Shown: positions 37,345-62,198 of the stretch, one piece after another
Layout of the letters: each line of letters begins with the position of its first letter
Position numbering within the stretch: position 1 is the stretch's first letter
Source: Candidatus Sulfotelmatobacter sp.
Lineage (GTDB): Bacteria > Vulcanimicrobiota > Vulcanimicrobiia > Vulcanimicrobiales > Vulcanimicrobiaceae
DNA: 64,000 bases
Direction of reading: 5' to 3'
Assembly (NCBI GenBank): GCA_035504415.1
Contig: DATJRY010000019.1
Span: 1-64,000 of the forward strand
Notes under the pieces: generated by a model
Seen by the model: the letters and a program-made list of their open reading frames with translations, nothing else
What the model was told of the DNA's origin: nothing
Databases searched by the model: none
Translations under genes and position numbers: made by a program

Positions 37345-38646
37345 CTAACCGTTGTACGGCAGCAGTTTGGCCGTGATCGGGACGCGCGGGTCCCCGGCGT
37401 GCTCGGTGATCACCAAGTCGAACGGGTATTTGCTGCCCGGTTTCGACTTGACCCACTGATCGCCGATGATCAGCGTGGTCGCGACGTTGGGCACCGGGCC
37501 GTGGCCGAAATCGACTTTGCCGACGATGCTGGTCATCGCGACCGACCCGATCGCTTTGGCGACGGCGGCCTTGCTCTTCGGGTTGCCGCTCTTCTTGAGC
37601 GCTTCGAACCCGACGTCGAACAGCGAGAGCGACGCGCCCAGCTGCTGGTTCCACTGCCGGCCGGTGGCCTTCTCGTAGGCGTCGGCGAGCGCGCGCGAGC
37701 TGATGCCGCTGAAAGCCGACGAGAACGGGAAGTCGCGGTGCCAGTAGCAGCCGCTGGCGAGCTTGTCGCCGAGCGAGCCCAGCGCTTCGGTCGTGCCGGG
37801 GAACAGTCCGGTCTTGGCGATCTGGCAGATCTTCACCATCTTGGTGTAGCCCTGCTGTGCCGCTTGCCGCCAGAAGGTCGCGAAGTCGGGCGGGATCGGG
37901 AAGGTGTTGAAGATCTCGCACTGCTCGGCTTTGAAGCGCGCGATCTGCGAGGAGAAGTCGGTCGTTCCGTCCTCGTAGCCGCCCGGATCGATCACCGTGT
38001 AGCCGGCTTTTTCCAGATCGGGCTTGAGATGCTCGCGAATCGCGTTCCCGTCGGCGTCGTTCGGATACATCACCGCGACCTTCTTGTTGTTCGGGATCAG
38101 CTTCCATTGCGAGAGGTAACAGTCGAGAAATTGCTTGACGCCGAAGCTGAACAGATAGGTCCACTTGTACGGTGAGGGCGCGCCGGGCTTGGCGCCGCGG
38201 CCGAAGTACCACGCTTCCCAGGGCATGACCGTCGCCAGACACGGCACGCCCGCCGCTTCGCACGCGTCCGAGACCGGGTTGACGACTTCCGGTGTCGAGG
38301 TGACGAGCATGAAGTCGATTCCCTCGCGGGTGATCAGCTCGTTCGCGAGCTGACCGGCGCGGGCCGGATCGGACTGGCTGTCGCGATCGAGGATCTCGAC
38401 GGCGTACTGCTTGCCGGCGATGGTGACGCCTTTGGCGAGCGTCTTGCGCGCGTGCTCGAGAATGAACGGGTCACACTCGCCGAAGCTGCCCAGCGGGCCC
38501 GTGCGGGGGCTGATGAATCCGATCTTGAGCGTTTCGGCCGCACTCGCCGCCGACCACAGGACCGGCGCGGTGCCGGCCAACGCCGCGCCGCCGGCGGCCG
38601 CCCCGACGGCGCCGACGAACGCGCGCCGTGAACTCCGATGTGCCAT
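37345..38646 (-). CDS. Liv-type substrate-binding protein, Tat signal (cassette A)
   Basis: A 433-residue exported binding protein. The N-terminus SSRRAFVGAVGAAAGGAALA is a twin-arginine signal, so it is folded before export. The mature part is a type I binding fold (IGFISPRTGPLGSFGECDPF) and contains SQSDPARA, a variant of the SQSSPNRA motif shared by the binding proteins of cassettes B and C. First gene of cassette A, with two palindromes in its upstream region (38660-38700). Confidence 0.9.
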   Translation of the reverse strand: MAHRSSRRAFVGAVGAAAGGAALAGTAPVLWSAASAAETLKIGFISPRTGPLGSFGECDPFILEHARKTLAKGVTIAGKQYAVEILDRDSQSDPARAGQLANELITREGIDFMLVTSTPEVVNPVSDACEAAGVPCLATVMPWEAWYFGRGAKPGAPSPYKWTYLFSFGVKQFLDCYLSQWKLIPNNKKVAVMYPNDADGNAIREHLKPDLEKAGYTVIDPGGYEDGTTDFSSQIARFKAEQCEIFNTFPIPPDFATFWRQAAQQGYTKMVKICQIAKTGLFPGTTEALGSLGDKLASGCYWHRDFPFSSAFSGISSRALADAYEKATGRQWNQQLGASLSLFDVGFEALKKSGNPKSKAAVAKAIGSVAMTSIVGKVDFGHGPVPNVATTLIIGDQWVKSKPGSKYPFDLVITEHAGDPRVPITAKLLPYNG

Positions 38647-45711: not shown

Positions 45712-46989
45712 ATGGGAAGCTCGTACGACCTGACCCGCCGCCGCATGCTCGGCATCACGGCCGCGGGCGCCGCCGCCGCGACGCTCGGCGTCCGCGCGCC
45801 GGCCCGCGCCGCACGCACGATCACGCTCGGCTTCGTTTCACCGCAGACGGGACCGCTCGCCGCGTTCGGCGAGGCCGACAGCTACGTGCTCTCGGCGCTG
45901 CGCAAGCGGCTCGCCGACGGCATCACGATCGGCGGCACGAAGTATCCCATCGCGGTCGTCGTCAAGGACAGCCAGTCCTCGCCGAACCGCGCCGGTGAGG
46001 TGGCCTCGGAGCTGATCTTACAGAACAAGGTCGATCTGATGCTCGTCTCCTCGACGCCGGAGACGACGAATCCGGTCGCCGACCAGTGCGAGCTCAACGC
46101 CGTGCCGTGCATCTCGACGGTGACGCCCTGGCAAGCGTGGTTCTTCCCGCGCCACGGCGATCCGGCCAAGGGCTTCGAGTGGACGTACCACTTCTTCTGG
46201 GGACTCGAGGACGTCGAGTCGGTGTTCCTCGGGATGTGGAATCAGGTCAGCACCAACAAGCTCGCCGGCGGTCTGTTCCCCAACGACGGCGACGGCAACG
46301 CGTGGGCCGACCCCGTGCACGGCATGCCGCCGGTGCTGGCGAAGGACGGCTACAAGCTGAACGACCCCGGCCACTATCAAGACCTGACCGCCGACTGCTC
46401 GGCGCAGATCAGCGCGTTCAAGAAGGGCGATTGCGAGGTGCTCACCGGCGTGCCGCTGCCGCCGGACTTCAAGAACTTCTGGACGCAGGCGCACCAGCAA
46501 GGCTATCGCCCCAAGATCGCGTCGATCGGCAAGGCGCTGCTGTTTCCGAGCTCGATCGAGGCGCTCGGTCCGATCGGCAACGGGCTGACCAGCGAAGTCT
46601 GGTGGACGCCGGCGCATCCGTTCCACTCCTCGCTGACCGGTCAGAGCGCCGGGCAGTTGGCGGCGGCGTACAGCGCCGCGACCGGCAAGCAGTGGACGCA
46701 GCCGCTGGGCTTCTCGCACGCGCTCTTCGAGGTCGCGGTGCACGTGCTCTCGCACGCGTCCGACGTCAACAAGAAGGAAGCGATCCGCGACGCGTTGGCG
46801 ACGGCCAGCGTGGATACGGTGGTCGGTCCGGTGCGGTGGGGCAAAGGACCGGTCAAGAACGTCGCCAAGACGCTGCTCGTCGGCGGCCAGTGGGAGCACG
46901 GGAAGAAATACCCCTACGAGCTGGTCATCGTCGAGAACGCGCTGGCAAAGGAGATTCCGCTGCAAGGGAAGGTCAAGCCGCTCGCATGA
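45712..46989 (+). CDS. Liv-type substrate-binding protein, Tat signal (cassette B)
   Basis: A 425-residue binding protein with a twin-arginine signal (LTRRRMLGITAAGAAAA) and a type I periplasmic fold (LGFVSPQTGPLAAFGEADSY). It shares GGTKYP and DSQSSPNRA with the cassette C binding protein and is clearly its paralogue. ATG after GGAAGGAGG. It lies 28 bp downstream of maleylacetate reductase, so cassette B is probably cotranscribed with the hydroquinone genes and imports their aromatic substrate. Confidence 0.9.
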   Translation: MGSSYDLTRRRMLGITAAGAAAATLGVRAPARAARTITLGFVSPQTGPLAAFGEADSYVLSALRKRLADGITIGGTKYPIAVVVKDSQSSPNRAGEVASELILQNKVDLMLVSSTPETTNPVADQCELNAVPCISTVTPWQAWFFPRHGDPAKGFEWTYHFFWGLEDVESVFLGMWNQVSTNKLAGGLFPNDGDGNAWADPVHGMPPVLAKDGYKLNDPGHYQDLTADCSAQISAFKKGDCEVLTGVPLPPDFKNFWTQAHQQGYRPKIASIGKALLFPSSIEALGPIGNGLTSEVWWTPAHPFHSSLTGQSAGQLAAAYSAATGKQWTQPLGFSHALFEVAVHVLSHASDVNKKEAIRDALATASVDTVVGPVRWGKGPVKNVAKTLLVGGQWEHGKKYPYELVIVENALAKEIPLQGKVKPLA

Positions 46990-53852: not shown

Positions 53853-54071
53853 CTACGCAATCCGTGTCGCAGGCTTCGACTTCAGCACTTCGTTCAAGAA
53901 CTTTCCCTTCGAGGTGCTTGGGCTCTTGAAGTCTTCCCATTCAGCAGGAGAACAAGCCGCGTAGGCCCATTCAGCTCCTGAATGGAATCGGACGTAAATG
54001 GTTTCTGCGTTCTCATCATACGCAAACGAGACGAGCGCAGAGGATTCGGCGTCGATCCAATCTGGTGTCAC
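53853..54071 (-). CDS. KTSC-domain protein coupled to SIR2-HerA
   Basis: A 72-residue protein made of a KTSC domain: SSALVSFAYDENAETIYVRF, then EWAYAACSPAEWEDF and the terminal SKGKFLNEVLKSK block that matches the family's C-terminal signature. The function of KTSC is unknown, but it occurs in small stand-alone proteins and fused to nucleic-acid enzymes. The GTG at 54071 overlaps the HerA stop (GTGA), so it is translated with the defence pair and shares its lower GC content. A third component or regulator is possible. Confidence 0.72.
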   Translation of the reverse strand: MTPDWIDAESSALVSFAYDENAETIYVRFHSGAEWAYAACSPAEWEDFKSPSTSKGKFLNEVLKSKPATRIA

Positions 54072-55813
54072 TGGGCTCTCTTTTCTGGCGCGCCGCGCCA
54101 CTCCGCGATGGCATCGGCAAGCGCTAGTGCCTTCGTGCCCGATCTCCAAGGAGAGAGCGGAGGGTCTTCAGCTTGCGGCCGTGGGTTCGGAGCGTCGATC
54201 AGGCTCCTAGCTGGTATCGTTGTCGCTTCGCCGGAAACGATTGCTTCGCCAGTGCGAAGCGATGGCAGCGCATCAGCTAGACCTTGAAGAGAGTCCGGCA
54301 GAGCTTTCTTAACGCAACTCTGATCTGCGCCGTTGGTGAGCCTCAGTGCGACAACCGTTCCGACTTGTGACAGCGCGGTTTCTGGGAGCTCAGAAGGTCG
54401 TTGAGAGATGAGCATGATTCCAAGGCCATACTTGCGCCCTTCCCTTGCTATTCTGTTAACAGATGTCTTGGCGTTCTGTGTATCTTTAGAATCGCCCAAA
54501 TATCGATGTGCTTCCTCGAGTACGACCAACACTGGGCTACCCTTGCCTATACCCTTAGAGCTGTGCGTCGCGAGTTGAAATAGTGTATCAAGAATGATCC
54601 CAACTGATAGGTCTGTCGCTTCAGAAGTTGCACCGCTGAGGTCTAACACGGAGATGGGCGCGCTATTCCCCAGCCATTGCGTGATGTATTGAGGAAGGGG
54701 GTCTTCAATCGCGACTAGGTCGTCTCGGGACAGGAAGAACTGCAGCCGTTCATCGCTTAACTTAAGACGCATTCGATCGGGAAAAACCGAGTAGCGACCG
54801 TATGACGTACCTTGATAAGGCGCGCTATTCTTAGCCGTCGGAACAGCAAATTGTGGGGGCTTAAGTGTTTCCGCATCTCCTGGGTCGAGAAGCATCACGT
54901 CGCCAAGATCTTTGCCGTCTTTATAGGTTGCGGAGTTTTCGTACGCCAGTCGATACCATACGTTGTGTAGATCGAACGGAACTGGAGTGTCCGCAGCAAT
55001 AAGTGGTTCGGGTATACTAAGCCATCGCGACGTAGCCGCGAAGGCTCGTCGCTCTTCGCTTACTAGTTCGCTGAAGCGAGTAAGGAGCGTAGCTCCCTCG
55101 CTGCCGGTCAGAATGCGCAGTAAGTCCGACGCCGGAACAGCCCAGTATGGAACTTTGAGTCGATTCTCCCGGGAGCCCATTACGCTCGCAACAGCTCCTA
55201 TCGAGCCTAAAGCGCGCCCGTACTCGCCGTGAGGATCGATCACGACGATGTTGCTTGCCGTGAAGCCACCATGAACAAAATTCTGCAAGAGGGTTGAGAC
55301 TGCGCTTGTCTTACCGGAGCCGGTCGACCCAACGACTGCTGAGTGGCGAAGGACCAAGAGTGACGCGTTAAGCGCGACAGGGATTTCGCGGAAAGCGGAG
55401 AGACCGCCCAGTCTAACGTGCTTATCGTCCCCTAGAGGGAAGACACGAGCCAAATCGCTTCGAGTGGCGAAATGGACTTCATCGTCAAGTCCTGGAAAGC
55501 TCGAAACACCTCGCGAAAACTGGCCGAGAGCATCGAGTTCTCCCAGCAATTGCACCTGGAGCCACCGGTCACCGACGGTAGGCGCGCTCCCAGGCGCCGG
55601 CGCACCGCTGAGTTCCGATATTCCTATCATCACGACGGAGGCCAAGAGGGTAATTGGGCCTTGCGGAATCCTAACTAGCGATCCGATCTGCCCTATCGGC
55701 TGAAGGTGGCCTTCCCAAATAGGTGACGTGCCGGCCAAGTCGGTCACTAACTCAACAGTGACGAGGCTCCCGAGGACGTGACGGACAACGCCGATTCTCG
55801 TGGGCTCACGCAT
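54068..55813 (-). CDS. herA: HerA-like ATPase of a SIR2-HerA defence pair
   Basis: A 581-residue HerA/FtsK-type ATPase. An N-terminal HAS-barrel-like beta domain (to about residue 110) precedes the motor: Walker A VGSTGSGKT (161-169), DPHGEYG, Walker B VLVVLEEAHRY with the catalytic Glu, and ISQRPSELPETALSQ near the end, typical of HerA. It overlaps the SIR2 gene by 8 bp. In characterised SIR2-HerA systems the two proteins form a large complex that acts on DNA and NAD+ after phage infection. GC content here is near 50%, far below the flanks. Confidence 0.9.
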   Translation of the reverse strand: MREPTRIGVVRHVLGSLVTVELVTDLAGTSPIWEGHLQPIGQIGSLVRIPQGPITLLASVVMIGISELSGAPAPGSAPTVGDRWLQVQLLGELDALGQFSRGVSSFPGLDDEVHFATRSDLARVFPLGDDKHVRLGGLSAFREIPVALNASLLVLRHSAVVGSTGSGKTSAVSTLLQNFVHGGFTASNIVVIDPHGEYGRALGSIGAVASVMGSRENRLKVPYWAVPASDLLRILTGSEGATLLTRFSELVSEERRAFAATSRWLSIPEPLIAADTPVPFDLHNVWYRLAYENSATYKDGKDLGDVMLLDPGDAETLKPPQFAVPTAKNSAPYQGTSYGRYSVFPDRMRLKLSDERLQFFLSRDDLVAIEDPLPQYITQWLGNSAPISVLDLSGATSEATDLSVGIILDTLFQLATHSSKGIGKGSPVLVVLEEAHRYLGDSKDTQNAKTSVNRIAREGRKYGLGIMLISQRPSELPETALSQVGTVVALRLTNGADQSCVKKALPDSLQGLADALPSLRTGEAIVSGEATTIPARSLIDAPNPRPQAEDPPLSPWRSGTKALALADAIAEWRGAPEKRAQ

Positions 55814-56909
55814 TGGCTGACGTCGGTGCTAAGCGACTACCGGTAAGGAACAGGGCCAAGCGACGGAAGTCCCCAAGCAAAAACCGCCCGCCTTCAAAAA
55901 TCCCTGCTGCAACGTTGTCAGCAGCCCAATTTGCGCGAATGCCACCAATTATCGCTTCATTGGGACTTAAAACCAAGATGTTGCGATATATTTCGGCGCG
56001 CGAAGCAAGGTCAACCGGAATTTCGTGGAAACACGCCGCAATGATTTCGGACCGTGGGAATCGTTTCGCTGCATCATAGATCACGTCGTTCAGGTGCTGA
56101 TCCCCGAACGAGTATCCGCAAATCAACGTGCAGCTTTCTGGCAGGGCGAGCCCGTGTCGAAACCGATCCATTAGTACCACGAAAGGAACGCGACGGCTAT
56201 CGTCATATTTTTCGTCAGAGGGATATATTGCTGCTGCTGCACCGGTTTGAACTGGCGCGCCTAATCTGAAGACGCTTCGGCGCTCATTGTGGCTTTCTAG
56301 CTGCCAGTTGATTGAACCGTGAAGCTTCCACAGACGAGTGAAGCCTGCCGGGGGTATTGACTCCGGATCGATGTCGGGAACATCAACAAGGTCTTCTCGG
56401 AATCGAGCCTTTAGTGTGCCAACAAATCCGTCAAAGTACGAAACGCCCTCTTCTTCGAGCCCGCGTTCGATGAGCGTGTCATAATTCGTGGTAAACACTT
56501 CAATGGGTAGCTTATAACGCGCACCCGCTGCCCAAATGGCCAGGCTCCGAAACGCGTCAATTGAACCTGGGGGTTCCGCTACTGATGCGACAATTGACGC
56601 GCATAGGGCCACATCTAGGCCGCGAGCTTCTTGGGACGTAAATTGGGACACCCGCTCGGCGCCTTCTGCAATCGCAGCGATCCGCCGTAGTTTGGTCAGC
56701 ACTTGTTCGATGTTTAAGCTGTGGTCTAAACGTTCGGCAAAAGCCCTGTACTGCGGCGTTAGAAGGCCAATGGCGGCGGCTTTAATTCCGGTAAGGCCCG
56801 GGAGCCCAGCCGTCATCCCGGCTCCTGCTCCGAGTAGGAGCGAAACGTGCCTCGACCGGGCCGCAAGCTTAGCATTTAGCTCGCTGGCAGTGGAAATAGG
56901 GTCATGCAT
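55806..56909 (-). CDS. SIR2-family protein of a SIR2-HerA defence pair
   Basis: A 367-residue SIR2 domain protein. The nucleotide-binding motif reads GAGAGMTAGLPG (residues 27-38), FTTNYDTLIE (around 139-148) carries the conserved Asn-Asp, KLHGSINW holds the catalytic His (about 197), and ICGYSFGDQHLN is the defence-type SIR2 tail. Such proteins hydrolyse NAD+ to stop phage growth. In the first motif a Gly stands where GAGxS has Ser. ATG preceded by GGAG. First gene of the SIR2-HerA-KTSC unit, with an AT-rich 160-bp upstream region. Confidence 0.9.
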   Translation of the reverse strand: MHDPISTASELNAKLAARSRHVSLLLGAGAGMTAGLPGLTGIKAAAIGLLTPQYRAFAERLDHSLNIEQVLTKLRRIAAIAEGAERVSQFTSQEARGLDVALCASIVASVAEPPGSIDAFRSLAIWAAGARYKLPIEVFTTNYDTLIERGLEEEGVSYFDGFVGTLKARFREDLVDVPDIDPESIPPAGFTRLWKLHGSINWQLESHNERRSVFRLGAPVQTGAAAAIYPSDEKYDDSRRVPFVVLMDRFRHGLALPESCTLICGYSFGDQHLNDVIYDAAKRFPRSEIIAACFHEIPVDLASRAEIYRNILVLSPNEAIIGGIRANWAADNVAAGIFEGGRFLLGDFRRLALFLTGSRLAPTSANA

Positions 56910-57071: not shown

Positions 57072-57302
57072 CTAGCGGAGCAAAGCTCGCAACGTCCGCT
57101 CGTCGATGCCGGCACGAGCGAGGATGGCTCGTAGGGTTCCGACCGCAAGGTCACGTCCTGAGTGGACCGGAACGCTTGCGAACCGACCATCAGGGTGTTC
57201 GAGAATGACGTGCGAGCCAGTCTGCCGATCGACGCAGAAGCCAGCTCGTTCCAGCGCTCGGACGAGTTCCTTTCCGCGCACTGACGGCAGCTTGGAACTC
57301 AC
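57072..57302 (-). CDS. hicA: HicA-family mRNA interferase toxin
   Basis: A 76-residue double-stranded-RNA-binding-like toxin: LPSVRGKELVRALERAGF, then the catalytic His segment GSHVILEHPDG and VPVHSGRDLAVGTLRAIL. It blocks translation by cutting mRNA. GTG start at 57302, 12 bp after the hicB stop. Order antitoxin then toxin is one of the two usual arrangements. GC content is high, like the chromosome, so it seems not to belong to the AT-richer defence island beside it. Confidence 0.9.
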   Translation of the reverse strand: MSSKLPSVRGKELVRALERAGFCVDRQTGSHVILEHPDGRFASVPVHSGRDLAVGTLRAILARAGIDERTLRALLR

Positions 57303-57314
57303 CGTGGGGGTCGC

Positions 57315-57572
57315 TCAGGCCGCGATCGTGATGACCTCGAGCCGCGCGCCTTCAGCGTCGGATATGGGGACGTCGAGTCCCTTCGAGCGACGATACTCGA
57401 CCGAGAGCGCGATGGCGTCGGCCGCCATTCGCAGCGCCTCTTCGCGGTTCGCGCCGAACGTCGCAATTTCGGGAAACGCGGGCACGATGACCCGCACGGT
57501 GTCCTCGTCGGGCTCGAGCACGACGGCGTAACGAAGCTCGGCCATGACGACCTGCTTCGACTCATGCATCAT
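57315..57572 (-). CDS. hicB: HicB-family antitoxin
   Basis: An 85-residue protein with the HicB partial RNase H-like fold (LRYAVVLEPDEDTVRVIVPAFPEIATFG, then REEALRMAADAIALSVEYR). No helix-turn-helix or ribbon-helix-helix domain is attached, so DNA binding would need another route. ATG 57572 follows GGAG at good distance; ATG 57545 (MAELRYAV) is an alternative that matches the usual HicB start. It neutralises HicA. Confidence 0.9.
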   Translation of the reverse strand: MMHESKQVVMAELRYAVVLEPDEDTVRVIVPAFPEIATFGANREEALRMAADAIALSVEYRRSKGLDVPISDAEGARLEVITIAA

Positions 57573-60923: not shown

Positions 60924-62198
60924 TCAGGTGTAGTGGATCAACTCCGGCTTGTGGTTCGTCGGCACTTGCGGCGTGGTCGAGTTGTCGACGATGAACAGCT
61001 CGTAGGGATACTTCGAACCCTTGAACCACTGGCTCACGACCAGCGGCGTCTCGGCGCAGTTCGGGAACGGCCCCTTGTTGAAGTCGATGGGGCCGACGAT
61101 CGACTCGTAGTGCGTCGACTTCGCCGCGTCGCGAATCGAAGCGGCCTTGTCGATGTCGTGCGTGCGCTTGAGCACATCGAAGACGACTTCCCACAGCGCG
61201 TGACGGAACCCCAGCGCCATCGAGTACTGCCGCTTCTCGGCGCTCTCCCAATCGTCGGCCAGTTGGCGCGAGGTCATCGGGAACAAGTGCGAGCTGAACG
61301 GGTGGAACTTCGACCACCACGTCTCGGCCGTCAGACCCACGCACCGGTCGTGCAGGACGTACATCGCTTCGGGGAATTCGCACGCCTTCCCGACGTAGAC
61401 CGACTTGGGCTTGTACCCCTGCTGCGCGGCGCCGTTCCAGAAGGCGGTGAAGTCCGGCGGCGGCAGCACGCCCTGGATGATCTCGGCGTGACCGCTCTGG
61501 AAGGCCGCGATCTGGGCGTTGTAGCTCGAGGCCGGCATGTCGAAGCGACCGGGGTCGACGACCTTGTAACCCGACTTGGTGAACTCCTCGGCGAAGACTT
61601 TCGACTGCGCGATGCCGTCACCGTCGTTGCCCCACAGGCCGCCCAAGACTTTGTTCGTCGGCAGCTTGTTCCAGTACGCCAGCATCGCTTTCGAGAGCGT
61701 TCCGGCGCTGAAGAAGAAGTGGTAGGTCCACTCGAAGCCCTTCTTGGGATCGCCCTTGCGACCGAAGAAATAGGGCTCGAGCGGCGCGTCGTTCGAGATG
61801 CACGGCACGCCGTTGAGCTCGCACTGATCGGAGACCGGGTTGACGGTTTCCGGCGTTGCGTAGACGGCCATGATGTCGATCTTGTCTTGCAGGATCAGCT
61901 CGCGCGCGACGTCGGAGGCGCGGTTCGGGCTCGACTGGCTGTCCCGGATGATGATCTCGTAGGGGTACTTGGTCCCGCCGATGTTGATCGTGGTGCCGAA
62001 CCGCGACTTGATCTGCGAGAGCACGAAGGGCATGTGCTCGGTGAAGAACGCGAGCGGGCCGGTGACGGGCTGGACGAGTCCGATCTTGATCGTGCGCGGG
62101 GCGGCGGCGAAGGCCACCTGCGGCAGTGCTGCGGCGGCCGCCCCGGCGGCGGCCGCCCCTTTGAGGAAATCAGCGCGATCGATACGGCGGTTGGTCAT
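60924..62198 (-). CDS. Liv-type substrate-binding protein, Tat-like signal (cassette C)
   Basis: A 424-residue exported binding protein. The N-terminus NRRIDRADFLKGAAAAGAAA looks like a twin-arginine signal. The type I fold (IGLVQPVTGPLAFFTEHMPF) includes GGTKYPYEIIIRDSQSSPNRA-type sequence shared with the cassette B protein. ATG preceded by CAGGAGG. A 12-bp palindrome (62233-62244) lies in its upstream region, and an SDR and a GntR regulator follow upstream on the same strand. Confidence 0.9.
   Translation of the reverse strand: MTNRRIDRADFLKGAAAAGAAAAALPQVAFAAAPRTIKIGLVQPVTGPLAFFTEHMPFVLSQIKSRFGTTINIGGTKYPYEIIIRDSQSSPNRASDVARELILQDKIDIMAVYATPETVNPVSDQCELNGVPCISNDAPLEPYFFGRKGDPKKGFEWTYHFFFSAGTLSKAMLAYWNKLPTNKVLGGLWGNDGDGIAQSKVFAEEFTKSGYKVVDPGRFDMPASSYNAQIAAFQSGHAEIIQGVLPPPDFTAFWNGAAQQGYKPKSVYVGKACEFPEAMYVLHDRCVGLTAETWWSKFHPFSSHLFPMTSRQLADDWESAEKRQYSMALGFRHALWEVVFDVLKRTHDIDKAASIRDAAKSTHYESIVGPIDFNKGPFPNCAETPLVVSQWFKGSKYPYELFIVDNSTTPQVPTNHKPELIHYT

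Follow-up and report, generated by a model that had tools for sequence, protein, structure and literature searches.

A coupled KTSC gene behind HerA in a predicted three-gene SIR2-HerA anti-phage system

A low-GC operon of SIR2, HerA and KTSC

In the window, the whole 64,000-nucleotide stretch of DNA analysed here, three minus-strand genes follow one another in the order SIR2, HerA, KTSC and form a single overlapping operon at positions 53853–56909. The first (55806–56909) encodes a predicted SIR2-family NADase of 367 residues that matches Pfam SIR2_2 above the curated cut-off (E 4.8e-16) and has PDLC04093 as its best PADLOC model (1.1e-99). Its end overlaps by 8 bases with the ATG start of a HerA/FtsK-type ATPase gene directly downstream (54068–55813, 581 residues), which is matched by Pfam DUF87/HerA (E 2.7e-24, above the curated cut-off) and best by PADLOC model PDLC04105 (1.1e-128). 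With the catalytic N and H of SIR2 indicated by Pfam, PADLOC and motifs, this pair belongs to the SIR2-HerA systems. The third gene starts with a GTG at 54071, ends at 53853 and encodes 72 residues that match Pfam KTSC (PF13619; E 1.4e-11, 44.4 bits against a gathering score of 25); this score and the KTSC fold of the protein assign it to that family, while no match to it was found among PADLOC or NCBIfam models. The KTSC domain, which lies behind HerA or is fused to it in loci of the 8wld kind, and the position of the window HerA inside the KTSC-type clade of our HerA tree place the locus in the KTSC-type subclade.

An earlier note on this DNA had reported that the KTSC gene starts inside the HerA stop codon and that it has the low GC of SIR2 and HerA, and both observations hold. 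The HerA TGA stop and the KTSC GTG start have a GTGA in common at 54068–54071 (minus strand), and GC across 53853–56909 is 0.553 against about 0.70: in the rest of the window, 548 stretches of this length average 0.703, and the lowest of them has 0.657. This is consistent with acquisition of the island as one unit, a reading drawn from GC only, because a syntenic empty site was not found in sister genomes: the hydrolase flank of the island has matches in three other genomes of the genus (41–70% identity), and matches to the other flank are paralogues only.

The same note had pointed out that the SIR2 loop reads GAGAGM and departs from GAGxS, which is correct as to the sequence but uninformative. 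The NYD and HGS motifs are intact, N142, D144 and the HGS at H197 are conserved in the SIR2 family alignment, and S, P, A or G occupies the variable position of the loop in most of 101 SIR2 rows; GAGAGM is thus an ordinary variant within the range of the family, and we reject it as a sign of altered chemistry. In a Methylocystis plasmid (L030, 4043–4999), the annotated SIR2 start is apparently too late, as the open frame continues further upstream and takes in the GAG motif.

Just upstream of SIR2, at 57072–57572 on the minus strand (GC 0.645), lies a HicA/HicB-like toxin-antitoxin pair whose HicB match falls below the Pfam cut-off. The window also contains three paralogous genes for ABC-type substrate-binding proteins (37366–38607, 45748–46971 and 60927–62198). 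The host genome has one HerA of KTSC type and two KTSC genes, and a genome of the same genus carries a 564-residue open frame that ends in a KTSC domain, its sole Pfam match (L191, 1480–3171, minus strand).

KTSC is linked to one clade of HerA

KTSC is an almost invariable partner in one HerA clade, lying behind HerA or fused to its C-terminus. Summed over all samples, it occurs directly behind or fused to HerA in 111 of 112 KTSC-type HerA loci, a total in which a few loci or records are counted more than once (for example L031 with L062, and L086 with L158), and the sole miss is a viral contig that ends 2 bp after HerA (L122). By comparison, KTSC is found in 0 of 57 control loci with other kinds of HerA, 8 of them SIR2-linked, these 57 representing somewhat fewer independent genes (L027 and L028 are second pieces of L013 and L022, and a few loci are cut at contig ends). 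The earlier note had allowed that the association might occur only here, with KTSC neighbours in other genomes being random, and these counts speak against that.

Individual samples give the same picture. On genome contigs, found with an alignment of seven HerA proteins as the query, we considered the best 80 of 544 relatives, which are not a random draw; a KTSC profile match follows HerA in 80/80 of these loci and SIR2 precedes it in 79, the remaining contig beginning 91 bases before HerA. Related HerA genes were found by tblastn in 348 plasmid records, and eight of the closer ones, from Paraburkholderia, Methylocystis, Natrinema, Rhizobium, Paracoccus, E. coli, Aeromonas and Bradyrhizobium, all carry SIR2, HerA and KTSC in this order; plasmid loci with other kinds of HerA have SIR2 in four cases out of nine and KTSC in none. 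Eighteen loci on viral contigs comprise 12 of KTSC type, 11 of them with KTSC, four with different HerA proteins and two without a HerA frame. In the host's own phylum, where HerA matches occur in 18 of 149 genomes, KTSC is present in 4/4 KTSC-type HerA loci and 0/22 others. An even sample of 398 genomes gave matches in 81, and among the 30 best loci, SIR2 and KTSC are both present in all eight of KTSC type, whereas the other 22 are without KTSC, four of these having SIR2. Across KTSC-type loci, SIR2 is present wherever the upstream DNA is readable. The taxa named in the records include Actinomycetota, Acidobacteriota, Chloroflexota, Gemmatimonadota, Pseudomonadota, Verrucomicrobiota, Bacteroidota and haloarchaea, among others.

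A Pfam KTSC search across 147 genomes of the host's phylum gave hits in 14, at 16 places in all; the four that adjoin HerA are the same four KTSC-type loci, and the other 12 are lone KTSC genes. In a set of eight genomes with known loci, the search recovered KTSC in all eight, one of them below the cut-off. Spacing is tight in the 87 separate HerA-KTSC pairs measured, with 52 overlapping and 35 spaced by 0–30 bp, and in four separate pairs of the even sample the two genes share a reading frame, interrupted by one stop codon. We found no fourth conserved gene, the largest neighbour family being present in 6 of 99 loci.

Some loci have features of their own. The KTSC frame of L065 is broken by a stop, and the HerA frames of L067 and L069 are broken, the latter with N bases nearby. 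One genome (G151, that of L107) contains two different KTSC-type HerA loci. In the Natrinema zhouii plasmid (L031, 6862–7839), pieces of an ADP-ribosylglycohydrolase, annotated as two fragments, stand directly behind the KTSC gene.

In a FastTree phylogeny of 149 HerA rows, all 105 rows of KTSC type group together (support 94), apart from 44 others, some of which were flagged for long branches; the tree excludes repeated sequences, short frames, the broken frames of L067 and L069, and the 8wiv protein. The KTSC-type group consists of 96 rows with separate KTSC, eight fusions and the truncated L122, and the window HerA falls in a subclade of 36 (support 100). The eight fusions, all at the HerA C-terminus, occupy three places on the tree, namely six related rows, L114 and L118 (the eight being L077, L088, L089, L090, L106, L111, L114 and L118); a fourth origin is possible for the fused HerA of the PDB. 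HerA and KTSC distance matrices correlate with r 0.88 over 103 pairs, and with 0.85 and 0.66 within two subclades, compared with maxima of 0.08, 0.40 and 0.16, respectively, in 1000 label permutations. Since shared descent alone can yield such a correlation, it shows co-inheritance rather than contact.

Structural evidence and a proposed role for KTSC

The best PDB match of the HerA profile is 8wiv, a HerA of 696 residues (E 1.9e-206) whose residues 629–696 match the KTSC profile (E 3e-18); the profile score ties this protein to the KTSC-type clade. Entries 8wld, 8woc, 8wod and 8wof also contain SIR2 (match 2.2e-103). An AlphaFold2 model of the window KTSC (mean pLDDT 90.9) matches KTSC crystal structures (4rgi, Z 13.1; 7x8c, Z 12.6) as well as the C-terminal part of HerA in 8wld, 8wof, 8wj3 and 8wiv (Z 9.8–11.0 over 68 residues), a match to HerA chains also found by Foldseek, while PDB chains other than KTSC score Z 4.1 and below. 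Since these matches are to resolved ends of HerA chains, the assembled SIR2/HerA complex contains the domain in ordered form; in this complex, the listed resolved chain lengths differ between protomers. A model of the natural fusion L118 aligns with 8wiv_D at Z 47.4 over 534 residues, with the alignment ending at residue 589 and a linker (595–608) modelled at pLDDT under 50. Liao et al. in 2024, which we take to be the paper behind the 8wiv-group entries, with Paenibacillus as the organism, reportedly describe HerA as a split spiral that a unique C-terminal extension stabilises, and we infer that this extension is the KTSC domain.

Constant linkage, repeated fusion and an ordered domain in the solved SIR2/HerA complex together make a structural role the most likely one for KTSC, as a HerA subunit that provides the C-terminal domain in trans, and we favour this over a free regulator or immunity factor. 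Taken as a whole, we think it likely that the locus encodes a three-gene anti-phage system in which KTSC serves as an assembly and gating subunit of HerA and is neither toxin nor antitoxin. The free 72-residue protein would dock on the HerA hexamer as the trans C-terminal domain and bridge neighbouring protomers, which, by analogy with the extension just mentioned, it probably staples together. Docked KTSC would hold the HerA ring in a resting, SIR2-competent shape; upon infection, the ring would change state and release SIR2, which would then destroy NAD+ and abort the infection. The earlier note's suggestion of an unrecognised component is upheld as regards a component, by the counts in KTSC-type and control loci, but is only partly right as regards unrecognised, as solved complexes already contain KTSC as the HerA C-terminal domain and PMC9503650 places KTSC with HerA.

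An alternative that we regard as unlikely is that KTSC acts as a sensor, binding phage DNA or RNA and passing the signal to HerA, which then activates SIR2. HerA relatives do act on DNA, and KTSC is called DNA-binding by Iyer et al. 2022 (PMC9503650) and RNA-binding, in jumbo phages, in a 2021 paper (PMC7824862). Against this, KTSC is acidic, with a median net charge of -3 over 114 sequences, only seven of which are positive, and -4 in the window protein, which speaks against plain nucleic-acid binding; furthermore, only KTSC structures score above Z 5 in the PDB, a result that is compatible with a sensor all the same.

Small coupled genes adjoining toxic effectors are often antitoxins, and the earlier note had accordingly raised a regulator or immunity-like factor, which here would be a brake silencing the SIR2 NADase in uninfected cells. 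We consider such a brake distinctly improbable: the eight natural fusions are to HerA and not to SIR2, the solved complexes have KTSC on HerA chains, and SIR2-HerA pairs of other clades do without KTSC, all of which fits a structural HerA subunit better. Lone KTSC genes are common enough (12 of the 16 places in the host's phylum) to suggest a passenger travelling with SIR2-HerA, an explanation that we reject as barely credible in view of the near-constant presence of KTSC in KTSC-type loci and its absence from the others, repeated fusion, correlated divergence and the lack of any other conserved neighbour in 99 loci.

Returning to KTSC as a HerA subunit, the borders of the fused genes carry features of a translation start. 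A methionine is kept at the start of the KTSC domain in 8/8 fused genes and also in 8wiv (residue 628 by count). By a simple rule, the domain-border ATG has a Shine-Dalgarno sequence in seven of the eight, of which five are near relatives, leaving about three independent lineages; the same rule detects one at 1 of the 73 remaining in-frame ATGs within the HerA part of these genes and at 98 of 115 starts of free KTSC genes. In L118, the first border ATG fails the rule and, by eye, a GAGG precedes the second. This pattern in the sequences hints that fused loci may still make free KTSC from an internal translation start; it could also be a relic of recent fusion. We put forward, tentatively and with more doubt than conviction, that KTSC may be an exchangeable subunit, the internal start in fusions giving a ratio of free to fused forms that would set the state of the HerA ring and the trigger of the NADase. 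If so, lone KTSC proteins encoded by phages could mimic KTSC and jam the HerA/NADase switch. Matches to the defence-type KTSC protein occur in 62 phage records, at up to 55% identity (for example H103–H127), and in the two regions examined, from Caulobacter phage Seuss (L202) and Providencia phage PSTNGR2lys (L203), no HerA stands beside KTSC. Phage KTSC proteins are possible mimics or decoys.

Relation to known systems

We regard the locus as a real three-component variant of the known SIR2-HerA system, built with a known fold that was solved in fused form earlier, but with a separate third gene, which two-gene definitions of SIR2-HerA omit. SIR2-HerA counts as a two-gene system, and PADLOC, the one detection library examined, has no KTSC-matching model. 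We did not find KTSC named as part of SIR2-HerA in the literature searched, whose coverage mostly excludes subscription journals. PMC9503650 contains one remark, given as an unpublished observation, on a KTSC that accompanies HerA where a nuclease replaces the sirtuin. If this branch needs the third gene, clones with SIR2 and HerA alone may seem misregulated or without activity, and a subunit goes unannotated. KTSC, a domain of unknown function, is also tied to a testable job on the HerA ring, for which fused structures exist, and a plasmid-borne E. coli copy of SIR2-HerA-KTSC (L034) makes a requirement for the third gene practical to test in laboratory strains.

The closest solved relative is SIR2-HerA with fused KTSC (8wiv, 8wj3, 8wk0, 8wld, 8woc, 8wod and 8wof, with SIR2 in 8w9l), which shares its SIR2 and HerA subfamilies and its KTSC fold with the window; its KTSC forms the C-terminal domain of HerA, whereas the window and most relatives encode KTSC separately in a coupled gene. 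The E. coli SIR2-HerA (Nezha; 8j4u, 8sub) and the 8yhx type likewise combine a SIR2 NADase with a HerA ATPase but are more distant (SIR2 matches of 2e-25 and 1.8e-30), with no KTSC match in their chains. HerA-DUF4297 (8xau, 9c1m, 8ziq) is likewise a HerA-driven defence complex, in which a nuclease replaces SIR2 and, according to PMC12198126, a C-terminal HerA hook takes the place of KTSC; no KTSC is present in the two plasmid loci of this type that we examined. In the system remarked upon by Iyer et al. 2022, KTSC is coupled to HerA as here, but the effector differs, an endoDNase replacing the sirtuin that occupies the readable upstream DNA of the KTSC-type loci.
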